From NCBI GenBank assembly GCA_903842345.1, contig CAIMLR010000021.1:1-64000 (forward strand): a stretch of 64,000 bases of DNA. Reading direction: 5' to 3'. This document shows, piece after piece, positions 1 to 8,312 of the stretch. The stretch is from an uncultured Myxococcales bacterium (GTDB lineage Bacteria > Myxococcota_A > UBA9042). A program made the translations under genes and the position numbers. The notes beneath the pieces were generated by a model. The model saw nothing but the letters and a program-made list of their open reading frames with translations, searched no databases and was not told where the DNA came from. Every line of letters begins with the position of its first letter. The stretch's first letter is position 1.

Positions 1-1341
1 CCCCGCCAGCCCGCCCGTCATGTACCCCACCACGCTGCCGCCGAGCATCGCGCGCAAGCCGAGCGTGGCCAGGTCCTTCCGGCGTTCCGGCGCCATCGCC
101 GCGATGCCGCCGATTTGGATGGCGATGGACGCGAAGTTGGCAAAACCGCACAAGGCGTACGCCGTGATGATGGCGGCGCGCGGGGAGAGCGCTTGCGGCG
201 AGGCGAGGTTCTTGGCGAGGTCGAGGTAGGCGACGAACTCGTTCAGCACAATCTTGACGCCCAGCAGGCTGCCGACCGCGGGCGATTCCTCCGCCGAGAT
301 GCCGATGAGCCAGGCGACGGGCGTGAAGAAGTAGCCGAGCAGCTTCTGCAGCGTCACGCCCTCAAAGCCGAAGAGGCCAAGCGTCCACCCGAGCATCGCG
401 TTGGCCAGCGCCACGAGCGCGATGAAGGCGATGAGCATCGCGCCGACGTTCAGCGCCAGATGCAGGCCTTCGGAAGCGCCCGCCGCCGCCGCGTCGATGA
501 CGTTTTCGTGCAGCCGCGGCACTTCGATCGTTGAATCCGGACCGGTTTCAGGAACTTCCGTCTCCGGCACGAGCAGCTTGGACACAAGCACCGTCGCCGG
601 CGCCGCCATGATGGACGCCGCGAGCAGGTGCCCCGCGATGTCCGGGAAGGCCTTGTGCAACATGCCGACGTAGGCCGCCATGACGCCGCCGGCGACCGTG
701 CCAAAGCCGCCGACCATGATGCAGTGGAGCTCCGAGCGCGTCATCTTGGGCAGGAACGGGCGGACCATCAGCGGCGCTTCCGTTTGGCCGAGGAAGATGT
801 TGCCGACGGTGGAGAGCGACTCCGCGCCCGACGTGCCCATGAAGCGCGCGAGGCCTTTGGCGAACACGCGGACGATGCGGACCATGATGCCGCTGTGGTA
901 GCCGACGGTCATGAGCGACGAGAAGAAGATGATGGTCGGCAGGACGCTGAACGCCACGACGGCGGTGCCGCTGACGAGATCGCCAAAGAGGAAGCGCGCG
1001 CCGTCGTTGGAGAAGTTCATGAGCGCGACGAAGGCGTCATTGACCCACGAGAAGAACTTGTTGGCCTGCGAGGACTTGAGGACCAACGCCGCGAAGACGA
1101 GCTGCATCGTGACGCCCGCGCCGACGACCCGCCACGGAAATTTCTGGCCGGGGCGCTTGTCGCGGAAGATCCAGCACCCGGCGATCATGACGATGAGGCC
1201 GAGGACCGCCTGCAAACGCGGCAGAATGCCGGCGTCGCCGACGTCGTGAACAAAGGCGTGCGGGGCAGTTGCCGGATCGGCGCTGGCAACCAGCGGAAAT
1301 GCCAGACAAAGCGCGACAAGAACGACGAGGCGAATCGGCAT
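1..1341 (-). CDS. nupC: Concentrative nucleoside transporter (CNT/NupC family), C-terminus cut by window edge
   Basis: This is a cation-coupled nucleoside uptake permease of the inner membrane. I translated it from the reverse strand: 447 codons lie in the window with no stop, and the stop should be just outside because the last residues (GLRAMLGGSVVGYMTGG) match the family C-terminus. Family motifs include GNIFLGQTEAPL, MTRSELHCIMVGGFGTVAGG and GFANFASIAIQIGG. The ATG at 1341 is followed by a signal-like hydrophobic segment and preceded by a GGAG at suitable spacing. About 100 bases separate it from the divergent kinase-fusion gene at 1448, so the two probably share a promoter region and perhaps a pathway. 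The family call is firm; the nucleoside transported cannot be read from sequence. Confidence 0.9.
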   Translation of the reverse strand, partial: MPIRLVVLVALCLAFPLVASADPATAPHAFVHDVGDAGILPRLQAVLGLIVMIAGCWIFRDKRPGQKFPWRVVGAGVTMQLVFAALVLKSSQANKFFSWVNDAFVALMNFSNDGARFLFGDLVSGTAVVAFSVLPTIIFFSSLMTVGYHSGIMVRIVRVFAKGLARFMGTSGAESLSTVGNIFLGQTEAPLMVRPFLPKMTRSELHCIMVGGFGTVAGGVMAAYVGMLHKAFPDIAGHLLAASIMAAPATVLVSKLLVPETEVPETGPDSTIEVPRLHENVIDAAAAGASEGLHLALNVGAMLIAFIALVALANAMLGWTLGLFGFEGVTLQKLLGYFFTPVAWLIGISAEESPAVGSLLGVKIVLNEFVAYLDLAKNLASPQALSPRAAIITAYALCGFANFASIAIQIGGIAAMAPERRKDLATLGLRAMLGGSVVGYMTGGLAG

Positions 1342-1447
1342 CGCGGACTCCGGTCGCAGCGGATGGCGACGGACCGAGCGTGCGTGGTTGTGCGCACGCC
1401 GTCAACGCTTGCCCGCAGACACGGCAGCGTGCCACCATCGCGGTCCC

Positions 1448-3259
1448 ATGGCGCGTCGTCCTCACATCCTCATCATCGGCGGCGCTTCCGTGGACAGCCT
1501 GCGCGCGGACGGCCAGGCCATCACGACGCCAGGCGGCGCGGCGCTCTACACCGCGATTGCCGCGCGAAAAGCCGGCGCGGACGTGCGGTTTTTCGGCTTC
1601 AAGCCCGATCCCCTGCCCGAACTCTTCCGCGAGCCGGCGCGCATGGTCGATTGGGTCGGCCCGCCGTGCCGGCTGGACGACATTCCGCACTTTGAAATCA
1701 TCTACGACGAGCGCGGCGATGCCCGCATGGGCGCGGCGTCCTGGGGCAAGGAAGACCAGCTCGATCCGGCGATGGTCCCGGACGCGTTGCTGGAGAGCGT
1801 CGACTACATCCACATTGCGGCGATCCACGATCCGTCGCTGCAGATGAAGTTCGTGCAGACGCTGCGGCGGCGTTCGTCGGCGAAGCTGTCGGCGGGCACG
1901 TTTGGCTACATGGTGCACCGCGCGCCGGATGCGGTGCGGGCGCTGCAGGAAGCGACGGACCTGTTCTTCCTGAACGGCTTTGAGGCCGATCTGGTGTTTG
2001 GCCGGCAGGCGCCAACCGTGCGACCCGGGCAGATCCTCGTGATTACCCGCGGCGCGGAAGGCGCGGACGTGTGGCAGGGCGATTGGTGCACGCGGGTGCC
2101 GTGCTATCCGGCCCAGCCGCTCGACCTCACGGGCGCGGGCGATTCCGTGTGCGGCGGCGCGCTGGCGGGGCTTGTGGACGGCCTGCATCCGACCCAAGCG
2201 GTGCAACTGGGCGCGGCTGTCGCGGCGCTGACCATCGAGTCCCCGGGCATGACGGGGCTGCTGAAAGCGACGCGGATGACCATCGTCCAGCGCCAGACGC
2301 AGACCGTGGACGCGCGCGTGAGCGTGGATGAGGCGCAAGTGGAGCGCATTGGCGCGATCCTCGCCGACCTGCCGCACATCGCGCCGTTTGATTTTACTGG
2401 CCCGCACTTTCCGCCGGTCGGCGATCCGCTGGCGATCCCGTGGTTCTTCGCCACGATGCTGCACCAGTTTGGCTTCTGGAGCCCGCGCGAAGGCCGTTGG
2501 GACCAGCCGATGCTGGCGAACCTCGATGGCGAGCGGCTCAAGGGCTCGGACTACGTCTTTGCAGCCTTTGCCCGCGTGCTGCGGGACAATCCCGACCTGC
2601 TGGCGCCGCGCGCGCAGGCGACGTTGCGCTGGAGCGACACGGAAGACACGTTCCGCGCGGACGACGGCAACGTGCCGGTGCCGGTGCTGGCCAACCACCA
2701 CGCGTTGGCGCGCAGCTATGGCCGCGACTTGTGGGAATTGGGCTGGACGCCGGAGCTTTTGGTGACGCTTGCGCAGGAGGCCGCGAATCCGGTCGCGGCG
2801 CTCGTGGAAAAGCTCGACCACATCGCCGGCTACCGCGAGGATCCGCTGCGGAAGAAGTCGATGTTGCTTGTGGCGGCGCTGGGCCAACGCCCGGAGAAGT
2901 TCCTGGATCTGGCCGACGGCCGCGATCTGGCGCCCATTATCGACTACCACCTCATGCGCTCCTGCCTGCGCACGGGCCTGGTGCGCGTGCATGACGACGC
3001 GCTGCGGGCGACGCTGCTGGGCCGCAAACTGTGCACGCCGGCCGACGAAAACGCGGTGCGGGTGGCGAGCTACGACGCGATTCAACGCCTGTGCGCGCAC
3101 TCCGGGCGGGACGTGGGCACGGTCGACTATTTCTTCTTTGGTGCGCGCAAACGCTGCCCGGAGCTGACCGAGCCCGATTGCGCGAATTGCCCGCTGGAGA
3201 GCGCGTGCGCGAAGGACAAGGGGCTGTTCCAGCCGGTCCTGCGGACGACTTTCTACTGA
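1448..3259 (+). CDS. PfkB-family kinase fused to an iron-sulfur, HhH-glycosylase-like C-terminal domain
   Basis: Residues 1 to about 285 form a PfkB (ribokinase-type) kinase, with an N-terminal IIGGASVDSL strand, a PGGAALYTAIAA substrate loop and the anion-hole motif LDLTGAGDS holding the catalytic Asp near residue 232. Residues about 300-603 are a second domain. It has D499-x-H501 in DYHLMRSCLRTGLV, reminiscent of DxH..R..RTG in endonuclease III. It ends with C570-x7-C578-x2-C581-x5-C587, close to the C-x6-C-x2-C-x5-C [4Fe-4S] loop of that family. Spacing and sequence also recall queuosine-salvage (DUF2419/Qng1) glycosylase-fold proteins. The canonical LPGVG hairpin is not visible. I chose the ATG at 1448 because it sits directly before the kinase fold; upstream in-frame codons look noncoding. 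The nearby nucleoside permease suggests salvage of a (modified) nucleoside. The kinase call is firm, the second domain tentative. Confidence 0.75.
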   Translation: MARRPHILIIGGASVDSLRADGQAITTPGGAALYTAIAARKAGADVRFFGFKPDPLPELFREPARMVDWVGPPCRLDDIPHFEIIYDERGDARMGAASWGKEDQLDPAMVPDALLESVDYIHIAAIHDPSLQMKFVQTLRRRSSAKLSAGTFGYMVHRAPDAVRALQEATDLFFLNGFEADLVFGRQAPTVRPGQILVITRGAEGADVWQGDWCTRVPCYPAQPLDLTGAGDSVCGGALAGLVDGLHPTQAVQLGAAVAALTIESPGMTGLLKATRMTIVQRQTQTVDARVSVDEAQVERIGAILADLPHIAPFDFTGPHFPPVGDPLAIPWFFATMLHQFGFWSPREGRWDQPMLANLDGERLKGSDYVFAAFARVLRDNPDLLAPRAQATLRWSDTEDTFRADDGNVPVPVLANHHALARSYGRDLWELGWTPELLVTLAQEAANPVAALVEKLDHIAGYREDPLRKKSMLLVAALGQRPEKFLDLADGRDLAPIIDYHLMRSCLRTGLVRVHDDALRATLLGRKLCTPADENAVRVASYDAIQRLCAHSGRDVGTVDYFFFGARKRCPELTEPDCANCPLESACAKDKGLFQPVLRTTFY

Positions 3260-4118: not shown

Positions 4119-5534
4119 CTACAGCTTGACGTACTCGTACTGAAACTCTTGACCGTTGATGCCGCGCCGCGGCGGGGCAATCCAATTCGCGACCTTACCC
4201 TGCTCGTACACGCCGTGCATGATGCTGCGGAGATACGCCTTGTCGGCATCGCTCGGCAGCCAATCCGCCTTGCGCGCGTTGAACTCCGCTTCGCTGATGG
4301 GGTTGCCCTGCAGGTCAAAGAACGAACCGTTGTAGACGCCCTGGTGGCGATGGAAACGGCGCGACGGCAGCGTGACCTCAAAGTCCAGCCCTTCGTCCTT
4401 GACCGCCTTGCTCCAGCGCCGCACGGCATTCGCGCAGTCGTCGATGTAGTCGTCCCGCAGCACTTCATTCATCGCGTTGCGCAGCGCCACGCTCTCGTCC
4501 ACGAACTTGCCGTCCTTGAACAGCGTCACCAGCTTTTCCTGGCCAAGCGCGGTGTGCTCCGTGTAGTTCTTTTCTTCCATGAAGCGGCCTTTCAAGCCCG
4601 CGGCAAAAAAGTCCGCGGCGTTGCTTGAAATTTCGCTGCCAAAGAGGTCGAGGCAGTAGCTGAACCAGAAGTTGATGAACTTCTGGACCGTCGCCAGGTC
4701 AATGCCGCCCTGCGCCCGCGCGTCGCCGCTCGGATCCAGAAGCGTCAACTGCGCCGAACGACGGAGCACGCGCTCCAGACCGGTATCGCCCACGAACATG
4801 TGATGCGCTTCTTCCGTGAGCATGAACTTGCACGTGCGGCTCAGCGGGTCAAAGCCCGATTCTGAAAGCGAATGCAGCTGGAACTTGCCGTCGCGATCCG
4901 CGAACATCGTGAAGCAGTAGAAGCTCAACCAGTCGTCGCACGGCTGATTGAACGCATCCAGGATGCGCGGCTTGTCAGCATCGCCAGAGCGACGCGCCAG
5001 CAATTCCTCCGCCTCATCGCGGCCTTCCGCGCCAAAATAGCTGTGCAGCAGGTACACCATCGCCCACAAGTGGCGGCCTTCTTCCACGTTGACCTGACAG
5101 ACGTTGCGCATGTCATACAGGCTCGGCGCGGTCTTCCACAGTTGGCGCTGCTGCTCCACGCTCGCCGGCTCGGTATCGCCCTGGGTCACGATGATGCGCC
5201 GCAGCGTGTTGCGGAACTCGCCCGGCACTTCCTGCCACGCGGGCTGGCCGATGTGGTCGCCAAAGTTGACCTTGCGCTCCGGATCCCGCTCCGACAGGAA
5301 AATTCCCCAGCGGTAATCGGGCATCTTCACGTAGTCAAAGTGCGCCCAACCGTCCTTGTCCGCGCTCACGGCGGTGCGGAGGTAGACGTCCTTCTCCTGA
5401 ATGCCATCCGGTCCCATCTCCTGCCACCACTGCAGGTAGCGCGGCTGCCAATGTTCCAACGCGCGCTGCAACCGCCGGTCATCGGACAGGTTGACGTTGT
5501 TCGGAATTTTGCTCTGGTAATCGATACTCGCCAT
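4119..5534 (-). CDS. boxB: Benzoyl-CoA 2,3-epoxidase, oxygenase component BoxB
   Basis: BoxB is the diiron oxygenase that epoxidises benzoyl-CoA with O2 in the aerobic benzoyl-CoA (box) pathway. The 471-residue protein starts MASIDYQSKIPNNVNLS, typical of the family. It has two ExxH iron-binding pairs, EEGRH (E152, H155) and EEAHH (E242, H245), with E122 and D213 at the spacing expected for the other ligands. The ATG at 5534 is preceded by GGAGGG. It follows boxC by 57 bases. The reductase BoxA and a benzoate-CoA ligase are not in the window, so they must be encoded elsewhere if the pathway works. Confidence in the family is high. Confidence 0.95.
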   Translation of the reverse strand: MASIDYQSKIPNNVNLSDDRRLQRALEHWQPRYLQWWQEMGPDGIQEKDVYLRTAVSADKDGWAHFDYVKMPDYRWGIFLSERDPERKVNFGDHIGQPAWQEVPGEFRNTLRRIIVTQGDTEPASVEQQRQLWKTAPSLYDMRNVCQVNVEEGRHLWAMVYLLHSYFGAEGRDEAEELLARRSGDADKPRILDAFNQPCDDWLSFYCFTMFADRDGKFQLHSLSESGFDPLSRTCKFMLTEEAHHMFVGDTGLERVLRRSAQLTLLDPSGDARAQGGIDLATVQKFINFWFSYCLDLFGSEISSNAADFFAAGLKGRFMEEKNYTEHTALGQEKLVTLFKDGKFVDESVALRNAMNEVLRDDYIDDCANAVRRWSKAVKDEGLDFEVTLPSRRFHRHQGVYNGSFFDLQGNPISEAEFNARKADWLPSDADKAYLRSIMHGVYEQGKVANWIAPPRRGINGQEFQYEYVKL

Positions 5535-5591: not shown

Positions 5592-7280
5592 TCAAGTGCG
5601 ATTCCAGTCAAACACCGGCGCTTGCGGATGCCCGTACATCGGCAGCGCGCCGCGCTCGCCCACCGCATTCGGCCGCTGGAAGATCCAGTTCTGCCACGCG
5701 GTCAGCCGACCAAAAAGCTTGGTGTCACAGTTCTCCGGACCGGCAAAACGCAGGTTTTGCTCCATGCCCGTCAGTGCATCCGGCGAGAACGACACGCGTT
5801 CTTCAATCGCCAGCCGCACTTCGTCTTCCCAGTCGATGTCGTCCGGCGCGCGGGTCACGAGCCCCAGCTGCTCCGCGGTCGGCGCGTCCACGGCGCCGTG
5901 CATCGCCAGGATCTTGGCCAAGCCGTCCGGATCGCCGTACAGGCGAATCTGCAGCCGCGTCATGCCGTTGTGCGCCGCGTGCGTGCCCGCGTGAACCTGC
6001 CCGAGCGCGATGCTGTTGGCGGCATCCGGGTCGTCGAGCATGTACGCCCGATCCGCCGACCACGCGATTTCCAGCAGCGTGCCGGCAAAGCACGAGCCGG
6101 GCTCAATGAGCGCAAACATCGACCGCGACATGTTGTCCAGCCGCCGGAGCACGCGCGACTGGAACAGCTGGATTTCACGCGCCAGCCACGAGCCGTCGGC
6201 GCGCAACTGCGCAATCGCCGCGTCATGGCCGAGGACGCCTTCCGCCGTTCCCACCGTACGCAAAAGAATCAGACCGATTTTTGGATAGTTGAAGCGCAAA
6301 TCGAGAAGCGCCGCATCCAACTCGCGAAACGCCTGCAGCGACCACGCCGTCGCGCCCTGAGCCTGCAAGCCTGCGGCCGAAGCCGGCGCCGCTTCACTCG
6401 GACCGCGCAGCGTCAGCTCGCACCAACGCTTGTCATGGAGGATGCGCAGCGTCACATTCGGCCACGTCAGCGTCTCGATTTCGCCGTCGCGCACCTGCGT
6501 GCGGGCAACGGGCGTCAGCGCGATGCCCTGTTCGCCTTGATTGCCGCCAGCGTCCGCGACGATCTTCTGCGAGCGTTCGGCAATCCCCTGATCCCACTTC
6601 GATTTTGGCCAACCGCCGTCGACAAGCCGCATCTTCAGCGCGTCGCGCAGGCGAAAGCCTTCCGCTTTGGTGCAGAACAAGTCCGCCACGTCGCGCCGCA
6701 CCTTGCGCTTGTCCACGAGCCGCGTCAGGCCGCCCGTACCCGGCAGCACGCCAAGGAGCGGCACTTCCGGCAGGGACACGGCGGAAAAACCGTCGTCAAT
6801 CAGGTAGATCTCCGCGCACGCCTCGGCCAGTTCATAGCCACCGCCCGCCGCCGTTCCGTTCAGCGCCGCGATGTAACGCTGACTGGAGTGCGTCGTCGCG
6901 TCTTCGATCTCGCAGCGGGTTTCATTGGTGAACTTGCAGAAGTTGACCTTGAAGCCATGCGCGGAGCCCGCGAGCATCTTGATGTTGGCGCCGGCGCAGA
7001 ACATCTTGGGCACGCCGCCCGTGACGACGATGCAGCGCACTTGCGGGTGCTCAAAGCGCAGCCGGCGGACCGCGTCGGCCAACTCGATGTCCACGCCCAG
7101 ATCGTAACTGTTCATTTTCAGGTCATAACCCGGCCGCAAGGGGGCATCGCGATCGACCTGCATCGTGAGCGTGGCGACGGCGCCGTCCACGGCGAGCTTC
7201 CAGTGGTGGTAGCGCTCCGGCGAGGTGTCAAACGTGACCGGCGGCAAGTCCAAATGCGCAGAATCGTGAGCCATTTGCAT
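5592..7280 (-). CDS. boxC: Benzoyl-CoA-dihydrodiol lyase BoxC (2,3-epoxybenzoyl-CoA dihydrolase)
   Basis: BoxC opens the ring of 2,3-epoxybenzoyl-CoA, releasing formate and 3,4-dehydroadipyl-CoA semialdehyde. The 562 residues contain two crotonase-like halves. The N-terminal half shows CAGANIKMLAG and GTAAGGGYELAEACAEIYL, which form the acyl-CoA pocket; the second half is more divergent (CFAGTLLEIAWSADRAYML). Length and the opening segment PPVTFDTSPERYHHWKL fit the family. The ATG at 7280 is used; an in-frame ATG two codons later (MAHD) is possible. It heads a minus-strand group boxC, boxB, crotonase and is divergent from the ADP-ribosylglycohydrolase gene, with a 114-base gap holding their promoters. 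Confidence 0.94.
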   Translation of the reverse strand: MQMAHDSAHLDLPPVTFDTSPERYHHWKLAVDGAVATLTMQVDRDAPLRPGYDLKMNSYDLGVDIELADAVRRLRFEHPQVRCIVVTGGVPKMFCAGANIKMLAGSAHGFKVNFCKFTNETRCEIEDATTHSSQRYIAALNGTAAGGGYELAEACAEIYLIDDGFSAVSLPEVPLLGVLPGTGGLTRLVDKRKVRRDVADLFCTKAEGFRLRDALKMRLVDGGWPKSKWDQGIAERSQKIVADAGGNQGEQGIALTPVARTQVRDGEIETLTWPNVTLRILHDKRWCELTLRGPSEAAPASAAGLQAQGATAWSLQAFRELDAALLDLRFNYPKIGLILLRTVGTAEGVLGHDAAIAQLRADGSWLAREIQLFQSRVLRRLDNMSRSMFALIEPGSCFAGTLLEIAWSADRAYMLDDPDAANSIALGQVHAGTHAAHNGMTRLQIRLYGDPDGLAKILAMHGAVDAPTAEQLGLVTRAPDDIDWEDEVRLAIEERVSFSPDALTGMEQNLRFAGPENCDTKLFGRLTAWQNWIFQRPNAVGERGALPMYGHPQAPVFDWNRT

Positions 7281-7394: not shown

Positions 7395-8312
7395 ATGACG
7401 AAGCTGCTTGAAAAACGGGACCGCGCGCTCGGCGCGTTCATGGGCCTCGCCGTCGGTGATGCGCTGGGAACGACGCTGGAATTCGTCAAGCGCAAGGACG
7501 TCGTGCCGATTGCAGACATGGTGGGCGGTGGGCCTTTTGGCCTGAAACCGGGGCAGTGGACGGACGACACCGCCATGGCGCTGTGCCTCGCGGATTCGCT
7601 GAACGCGTGTGGCACCTTGAATCAGCGCGATCTGGCTGAACGGTTCCAGCGCTGGCGGCTGAAGGGCGAAAACTCCGTGACTGGCGTCTGTTTTGACATC
7701 GGCGGCGCGACGAAGCAGGCGCTGATTCGGTTCGCGCAGACCGACGATCCGGTCGCGGGCTCGACGGATCCGAACGATGGCGGCAATGGCTCGTTGATGC
7801 GGCTCTCGCCCGTCGCCGTGCGGTTTCACGACGTGGCGACGGCGGTTGAGGCGGCGCGGCGGCAGAGCGAGGTGACGCACGCGTCAGCAGAGTGCATGGA
7901 CGCTTGCGCGCTGTTTGCTGAGGTCCTGGTTCTGGCGATCGACGGCGCGGACAAGGCGTCCGTGTTGCAGGCGCGCGAGCGCGCGTTGGCGCCGAAGATC
8001 GCGGGGATCGCCAGCGGCGCGTGGCAAGCGAAGACCGAGGCGCAGATCAGCTCGACGGGGTACGTCGTCCACACGCTGGAGGCTGCGCTCTGGTGCGTCC
8101 ATCACAGCGACAACTTCCACGACGCCGTGCTGCGCGCCGCCAACCTGGGGCATGACGCCGATACCGTCGCCGCGGTGACGGGCCAACTGGCGGGCGCGAT
8201 CTGGGGCCTCTCCGGCATTCCGGCGGCCTGGCTGGAGAAGCTGGCCTGGCGTGACGATCTTGTGGCACGCGCGACCCGCCTTTGGGACGCCGGAGTCGCG
8301 GACGCCCGATGA
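7395..8312 (+). CDS. ADP-ribosylglycohydrolase family protein
   Basis: A 305-residue member of the DraG/ARH fold, which removes ADP-ribose from proteins or nucleic acids using a binuclear Mg centre. Visible motifs are GAFMGLAVGDALGTTLEF, PGQWTDDTAMALCLADSL (the metal-binding T-D-D) and the C-terminal NLGHDADTVAAVTGQLAGA, which supplies further metal ligands. I chose the ATG at 7395 rather than an upstream GTG because GGAGGA sits about seven bases before it. It is divergent from boxC and 70 bases before the thiolase gene. The target is unknown; a DraG-like role on nitrogenase is not supported by any neighbour. Confidence 0.9.
   Translation: MTKLLEKRDRALGAFMGLAVGDALGTTLEFVKRKDVVPIADMVGGGPFGLKPGQWTDDTAMALCLADSLNACGTLNQRDLAERFQRWRLKGENSVTGVCFDIGGATKQALIRFAQTDDPVAGSTDPNDGGNGSLMRLSPVAVRFHDVATAVEAARRQSEVTHASAECMDACALFAEVLVLAIDGADKASVLQARERALAPKIAGIASGAWQAKTEAQISSTGYVVHTLEAALWCVHHSDNFHDAVLRAANLGHDADTVAAVTGQLAGAIWGLSGIPAAWLEKLAWRDDLVARATRLWDAGVADAR

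Follow-up and report, generated by a model that had tools for sequence, protein, structure and literature searches.

Results

One reading frame encodes a PfkB-type kinase and a Qng1-like domain

The stretch of DNA considered here (hereafter, the window) corresponds to the initial 64 kb of contig C21 in its own genome, with the contig beginning at window base 1. Close to that end, one unbroken frame on the forward strand (positions 1448-3259; ATG at 1448, stop codon at 3257-3259) encodes a protein of 603 residues. A preliminary description of this DNA, made from the sequence itself, had proposed that a full PfkB domain runs on into a cysteine-bearing C-terminal domain, and this was confirmed, with both PF00294 and PF10343 being matched within the single frame. 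The features of the locus are collected in Table 1. Just downstream of the fusion lie genes encoding BoxB (4119-5534, reverse strand; TIGR03225, E = 3e-218) and BoxC (5592-7280, reverse strand; TIGR03222, E = 6e-225) of the aerobic benzoyl-CoA epoxidase pathway, which are probably unrelated to the fusion. A gene for an ADP-ribosylglycohydrolase family protein is found at 7395-8312 (forward strand; PF03747, E = 3e-73).

Table 1. Features of the fusion locus (window coordinates).
Feature	Position	Strand	Basis
Entire fusion gene, 603 residues and stop codon	1448..3259	+	Single open frame; orthologues colinear over residues 1-603 within the family of the window
PfkB kinase domain, residues 1 to ~270; GG hinge 29-30, TGAGD 228-232	1448..2257	+	PF00294, PDB folds, conservation
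Qng1-like N-glycosidase domain (predicted) with four-cysteine tail, residues 283-603	2294..3256	+	PF10343, AlphaFold2, PDB fold matches
K469, aligned with Qng1 K199	2852..2854	+	Alignments; invariant in 33/33
DYHLMRSCLRTG, residues 499-510; D499 aligned with Qng1 D231; DxHxxRxxxRxG as in endonuclease III	2942..2977	+	Alignments, conservation
C570-x7-C578-x2-C581-x5-C587, predicted 4Fe-4S loop	3155..3208	+	Invariant in 33/33; weak but colinear alignment with the FeS loop of endonuclease III
CNT-type (NupC-like) nucleoside transporter, divergent from the fusion	1..1341	-	PF07662/PF01773/PF07670; nine other Myxococcota loci have a homologue near the fusion
Divergent intergenic region, 106 bases, transporter/fusion	1342..1447	.	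Rfam: no match, no riboswitch

The kinase half matches PF00294 with a score of 88.2 bits (E = 8.1e-25), as compared to a Pfam cut-off of 25.8, and its GG hinge (G29, G30) and GAGD catalytic motif are identical in all 32 fused homologues considered. A profile search of the PDB returned 3kd6 and MJ0406 (2c49) as top matches, and a fold search gave ribokinase-family enzymes as the best PDB matches, including the nucleoside kinases 3kd6, 2c49, and 3b1q. As judged from these comparisons, the kinase half is most likely a nucleoside-phosphorylating enzyme. Directly after the GAGD motif, C235 (window 2150-2152, forward strand) is kept in 31 of the 32 fused homologues.

The C-terminal half resembles Qng1 in predicted fold and catalytic residues

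Comparison of the C-terminal half with PF10343 (Q_salvage/DUF2419) yielded 26.6 bits when the whole protein was considered and 28.3-28.4 bits when the domain alone was considered (cut-off 25), with the match covering part of the profile (positions 9-141 of 285). The same profile was matched at E ≤ 1 by 22 of 34 homologues, with the protein from the SAR324 locus L045 covering profile positions 8-238 (47 bits). AlphaFold2, provided with alignments of 33-34 homologues drawn from the fetched loci, gave a pLDDT of 91.3 and a pTM of 0.91 for the whole protein, and values of 92.6 and 0.92, respectively, for the C-terminal half. When the predicted C-terminal half was compared to the PDB using Foldseek, all 11 matches obtained at E ≤ 0.001 were DUF2419/Qng1 structures, namely, human 7ugk and the 7u07 series, with TM-scores of 0.72-0.77 and rmsd values down to 2.8 Å. 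The matches from the latter series include queuosine- and queuosine-5'-monophosphate-bound structures (7u91 and 7ulc containing queuosine-5'-monophosphate). For this predicted model, 7u1o and 7u91 were matched with a TM-score of 0.77 (2.8 Å, E ~1e-10). In a sequence search of the PDB with the C-terminal domain, human QNG1 (7ugk) was the sole significant match (E = 1.3e-4 with the single protein and 1.3e-8 with a 34-row profile), identity to Qng1 being ~18%.

The deposited mutants of Qng1 include K199C (7u5a) and D231N (7ulc). These residues (numbered as in Sphaerobacter Qng1) are the lysine of FYKRAQ and the aspartate of FADYK, and their counterparts in the window protein are K469 and D499, respectively. 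K469 and D499, together with H501, R504, R508, G510, C570, C578, C581, and C587, are identical in all 33 aligned homologues, the remotest of which come from other phyla and are 36-43% identical. As read from this alignment, conservation of the cysteines and of D499/H501/R504/R508/G510 exceeds chance. Because the K469/D499 pair, the DxHxxRxxxRxG motif, the cysteines, and the kinase motifs are all invariant, both halves look catalytically intact in all of the aligned homologues. The similarity to the DUF2419 glycosylase fold noted in the preliminary description is thus supported by the fold search of the predicted model, which returned a glycosylase fold rather than an unrelated one, and by retention of the catalytic pair.

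The likeness to Qng1, a family that includes Sphaerobacter Qng1 and human QNG1, also takes in the FW and YR-D regions. Still, DYRLPQ or DYKVPQ in Qng1 is replaced by DYHxxR in the fusion, and SGYW or DGYW by KGSDY. Given these motif differences and the low identity, the base pocket may differ from that of Qng1.

The C-terminal half carries an endonuclease III-like motif and cysteine loop

A profile of the domain matched endonuclease III at E = 2.3, a weak match that is not significant alone, with the two being colinear at both the DxHxxRxxxRxG motif and the FeS loop. That motif is found in the HhH-GPD glycosylases endonuclease III, MutY, and AGOG, and in endonuclease III and MutY a four-cysteine FeS loop likewise follows the helical core. 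The cysteines of the fusion are spaced 7-2-5, as compared to 6-2-5 in the aligned endonuclease III, such that the first gap is one residue longer. Of the likeness to endonuclease III first described, the presence of a motif and of a cysteine loop held, with the wording of the motif requiring correction to that given here; the cysteines themselves were kept in every orthologue checked. The loop may bind a 4Fe-4S cluster; characterised Qng1 enzymes are not known to contain one. The presence of a Qng1 core and an endonuclease III signature in one domain suggests that this domain is an FeS-containing sister of Qng1.

The same loop and motif could be taken to indicate an enzyme of the HhH-GPD class that excises bases from DNA or RNA, its kinase-like domain being regulatory. 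Such an assignment is highly improbable, since MutY, NTHL1, endonuclease III, and AGOG trail far behind Qng1 in the Foldseek comparison (E 0.015-0.09 vs 5e-12; TM-scores of ~0.4 or less), with Qng1 alone appearing at E ≤ 0.001 and the closest fold thus not being that of a DNA glycosylase. Moreover, the kinase catalytic motifs are kept in all carriers, and a nucleoside transporter adjoins the fusion in one family. Relative to HhH-GPD glycosylases, the protein is distinguished by its distant fold, its attached kinase, and a setting without DNA-repair context.

The fusion is found in at least four phyla

The fusion was detected in all 22 members searched of the family to which the window belongs (its own genome being counted), in some cases split over contigs; outside this family, the same search gave mostly matches to the kinase half only. 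Near relatives of the window's genome in the collection used are uncultured Myxococcales MAGs. A survey of 84,980 species genomes yielded 43 loci from Myxococcota, Actinomycetota, SAR324, and Marinimicrobia, such that the fusion is not peculiar to this genome. In each case where contig and frame permit judgement, the locus is kinase-fused; L056 is apparently frameshifted, and L041 and L050 are truncated. No fused relatives were found in the phage, plasmid, and viral collections searched.

In a tree of these proteins, the 13 Myxococcota rows cluster together as a single group, as do the 11 rows from Actinomycetota and the 3 from SAR324. Distances between kinase halves correlate with those between glycosidase halves (r = 0.92 over 496 pairs), as expected if the two stayed together. 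L026 (CAMDBH010000017.1), from a record titled Klebsiella pneumoniae, falls firmly among the Myxococcota rows, and the record is likely a mislabelled MAG. Two further sequences lie on long branches and are of uncertain placement. One (L065, 2715-3671, forward strand), from genome G035, in which QueC is present and TGT was not found, is a Qng1-like domain that has the four cysteines but is neither fused to a kinase nor encoded next to one. The other (L066, 1771-3567, reverse strand), from genome G008, is a divergent fused paralogue (38% identity) whose branch is very long and whose substrate may differ; this genome also contains a normal fusion.

A nucleoside transporter adjoins the fusion in one Myxococcota family

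The permease encoded divergently from the fusion matches PF07662 (E = 3e-76) and the NCBIfam nupC model (E = 5.7e-118; 394.5 bits, below the model cut-off of 442). When used as a tblastn query, it revealed a homologue (60-95% identity) adjoining or a few genes from the fusion in nine further Myxococcota loci (L022, L023, L025, L026, L027, L030, L031, L036, and L064), i.e., 10 when the window is counted; the 22 loci outside this Myxococcota family (L042-L063) yielded none. As such, the pairing with a nupC-like gene first seen in the window is real, but limited to one family.

In the window and 12 other loci, no preQ1 or other riboswitch was detected close to the fusion. Outside Myxococcota, the neighbourhoods contain no common transporter and no recognisable queuosine (Q) gene, and none of the gene neighbourhoods read contained a recognised Q gene adjoining the fusion. 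In several Myxococcota genera, a small gene resembling, by eye, smpB (tmRNA-binding protein) lies a few genes from the fusion (such genes being seen in L027, L029, L031-L033, L037-L040, and L050). In SAR324 (L045, L047, and L049), the fusion is near a tRNA gene, as well as genes that by eye appear uridine kinase-like and purH-like.

Most carriers of the fusion encode QueA and a preQ1-type TGT

Among the 29 fusion carriers scanned, QueA was found in 28, TGT in 25, and QueC (at E ≤ 1e-15) in none. Those carriers lacking TGT for which completeness is known are partial MAGs (G005, 84%; G019, 67%). The genome containing the window encodes TGT, QueA, and the QPTR importer, the latter being retained in its family, together with a weak and partial QueC-like match; another family member (G003) presents a strong QueC match. 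The QPTR importer and the QueC match of G003 both speak against the salvage reading set out below. As a control, class relatives without the fusion were considered, and six of eight likewise had no strong QueC match. In the Actinomycetota class that includes G063, five of 148 genomes contain the fusion; QueA is found in all five, as compared to 96 of the other 143 (hypergeometric p ~0.14), and QueC is missing from 87 of 101 QueA-positive genomes. The lack of QueC in the 29 carriers is striking at first sight, yet its absence is common class-wide. Accordingly, the loss of de novo queuosine genes raised in the preliminary description holds in that QueC is missing in nearly all carriers, yet relatives that do not have the fusion commonly lack it as well, and the QueC-less, QueA-positive profile hence supports a link to queuosine weakly.

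All 20 carrier TGT sequences read, including that of the window's genome, contain GGL[SA]VGE and are of the preQ1 type. Queuine-inserting TGTs typically contain GG[LS][AS]G, whereas preQ1 enzymes contain GGLAVG (PMC11570991), and the role of Val233 in TGT has been demonstrated (PMC3660597). In Bartonella, a TGT of the preQ1 type can be dual-use (PMC11570991). A preQ1-type TGT together with QueA suggests that carriers are built to use preQ1, in which case the fusion would free preQ1 or preQ0, or release queuine that is later reverted to preQ1 in a QueL-like manner, or else serve a role unrelated to Q. Queuine as the product, as expected by analogy to DUF2419, does not fit such TGTs unless a further step takes place. 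It is thus improbable that the fusion frees queuine from queuosine exactly as does Qng1, for direct reuse by TGT; the Qng1 fold and catalytic pair would agree with this, but the preQ1-linked Val in the TGTs of all 20 carriers (PMC3660597, PMC11570991) and the keeping of QueA, superfluous were queuine inserted directly, argue against it.

Discussion

These comparisons indicate that two-step chemistry, i.e., a kinase followed by a hydrolase acting on some nucleoside, is quite probable for the fusion protein. Taken as a whole, and with the substrate class included, the protein is best read as a bifunctional kinase and 5'-nucleotide N-glycosidase salvaging a 7-deazaguanine-type nucleoside, to which we assign a probability of roughly 0.57. 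In this scheme, for which we infer the substrate, the order of reactions, the cluster, and the role of the transporter, a modified ribonucleoside would be imported, the best guess being a nucleoside of the 7-deazaguanine class, either queuosine or a precursor; in Myxococcota, the adjoining CNT transporter would probably mediate such import. The PfkB half would phosphorylate the nucleoside 5'-OH, after which the K469/D499 pair of the Qng1-like half would hydrolyse the N-glycosidic bond of the 5'-monophosphate, leaving ribose 5-phosphate and the free base. The glycosidase fold would be stabilised by a 4Fe-4S cluster bound in the manner of endonuclease III. The freed base would return to tRNA via TGT and QueA; given the preQ1-type TGT, one would expect the base of use to the cell to be preQ1 or preQ0, or else queuine first reverted to preQ1 by a lyase like QueL. 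The compact salvage route originally envisaged thus stands as regards fold, catalytic pair, cysteines, and a fusion spanning several phyla, and less so where it relied on the transporter, a link limited to one family, and on QueC loss, which is not specific.

The PsuK-PsuG system (pseudouridine kinase and pseudouridine-5'-phosphate glycosidase) relies on the same two-step logic, pairing a PfkB nucleoside kinase with a 5'-nucleotide glycosidase. In the present fusion, however, the domain order is reversed, an N-glycoside rather than the C-glycoside cleaved by PsuG is the predicted target, and the glycosidase fold is unrelated to that of PsuG. Many eukaryotes encode PsuK and PsuG as a fusion, PsuKG, in which PsuG is N-terminal (PMC9247573). 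The primary substrate of Qng1, according to PMC11592518 (citing Hung 2023), is queuosine-5'-monophosphate, implying a kinase step. Together with the PsuK-PsuG precedent, this makes kinase first and hydrolase second the economical reading. Relative to Qng1 itself, the fusion differs in being joined to its presumed upstream kinase, in its four-cysteine loop and endonuclease III-like motif, and in its QueA-positive setting with a preQ1-type TGT. Indirect queuine salvage by QueK-QueL in Clostridioides difficile resembles the possible role of the fusion, in that bacteria whose TGT is of the preQ1 type free a base from a queuosine nucleoside (PMC11570991), but no kinase step is involved and the hydrolase QueK comes from an unrelated family (PMC11130926).

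The same chemistry could instead act on a nucleoside unrelated to queuosine, such as an oxidised or methylated purine nucleoside, in a catabolic or detoxifying role like that of pseudouridine breakdown. Pocket motifs unlike those of Qng1, the resemblance of the DxHxxRxxxRxG motif and FeS loop to DNA glycosylases acting on damaged bases, neighbourhoods without recognised Q genes or a nearby preQ1 riboswitch, and the non-specific Q profile of carriers all speak for such a substrate. We nonetheless consider this unlikely, as the nearest fold is, by many orders of magnitude, that of Qng1 solved with queuosine ligands, and as QueA is kept in nearly all carriers.

In the open literature searched, the scope of which did not extend to the central Qng1/DUF2419 papers, such that prior mention is possible, a kinase-Qng1 fusion was not described. 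Likewise, the literature covered named no kinase generating queuosine-5'-monophosphate, although a 2015 review infers that one must exist (PMC4425180). A PfkB kinase fused to a Qng1-type domain offers Rosetta-stone evidence for a queuosine-type kinase family, and makes the question of this kinase testable with one purified protein. Human QNG1 recovers the micronutrient queuine, and the glycosidase half of the fusion is its relative, with a predicted iron-sulfur cluster. The FeS loop and endonuclease III motif would link Qng1 to FeS DNA glycosylases by sequence, beyond fold. More tentatively, in a bacterial route not described before, a single chain may both phosphorylate and deglycosylate a 7-deazaguanine nucleoside so as to feed preQ1-dependent tRNA modification, with its 4Fe-4S glycosidase bridging, in evolutionary terms, Qng1 and the DNA glycosylases of the endonuclease III type, and its kinase half being the first queuosine (or preQ1-nucleoside) kinase to be identified.
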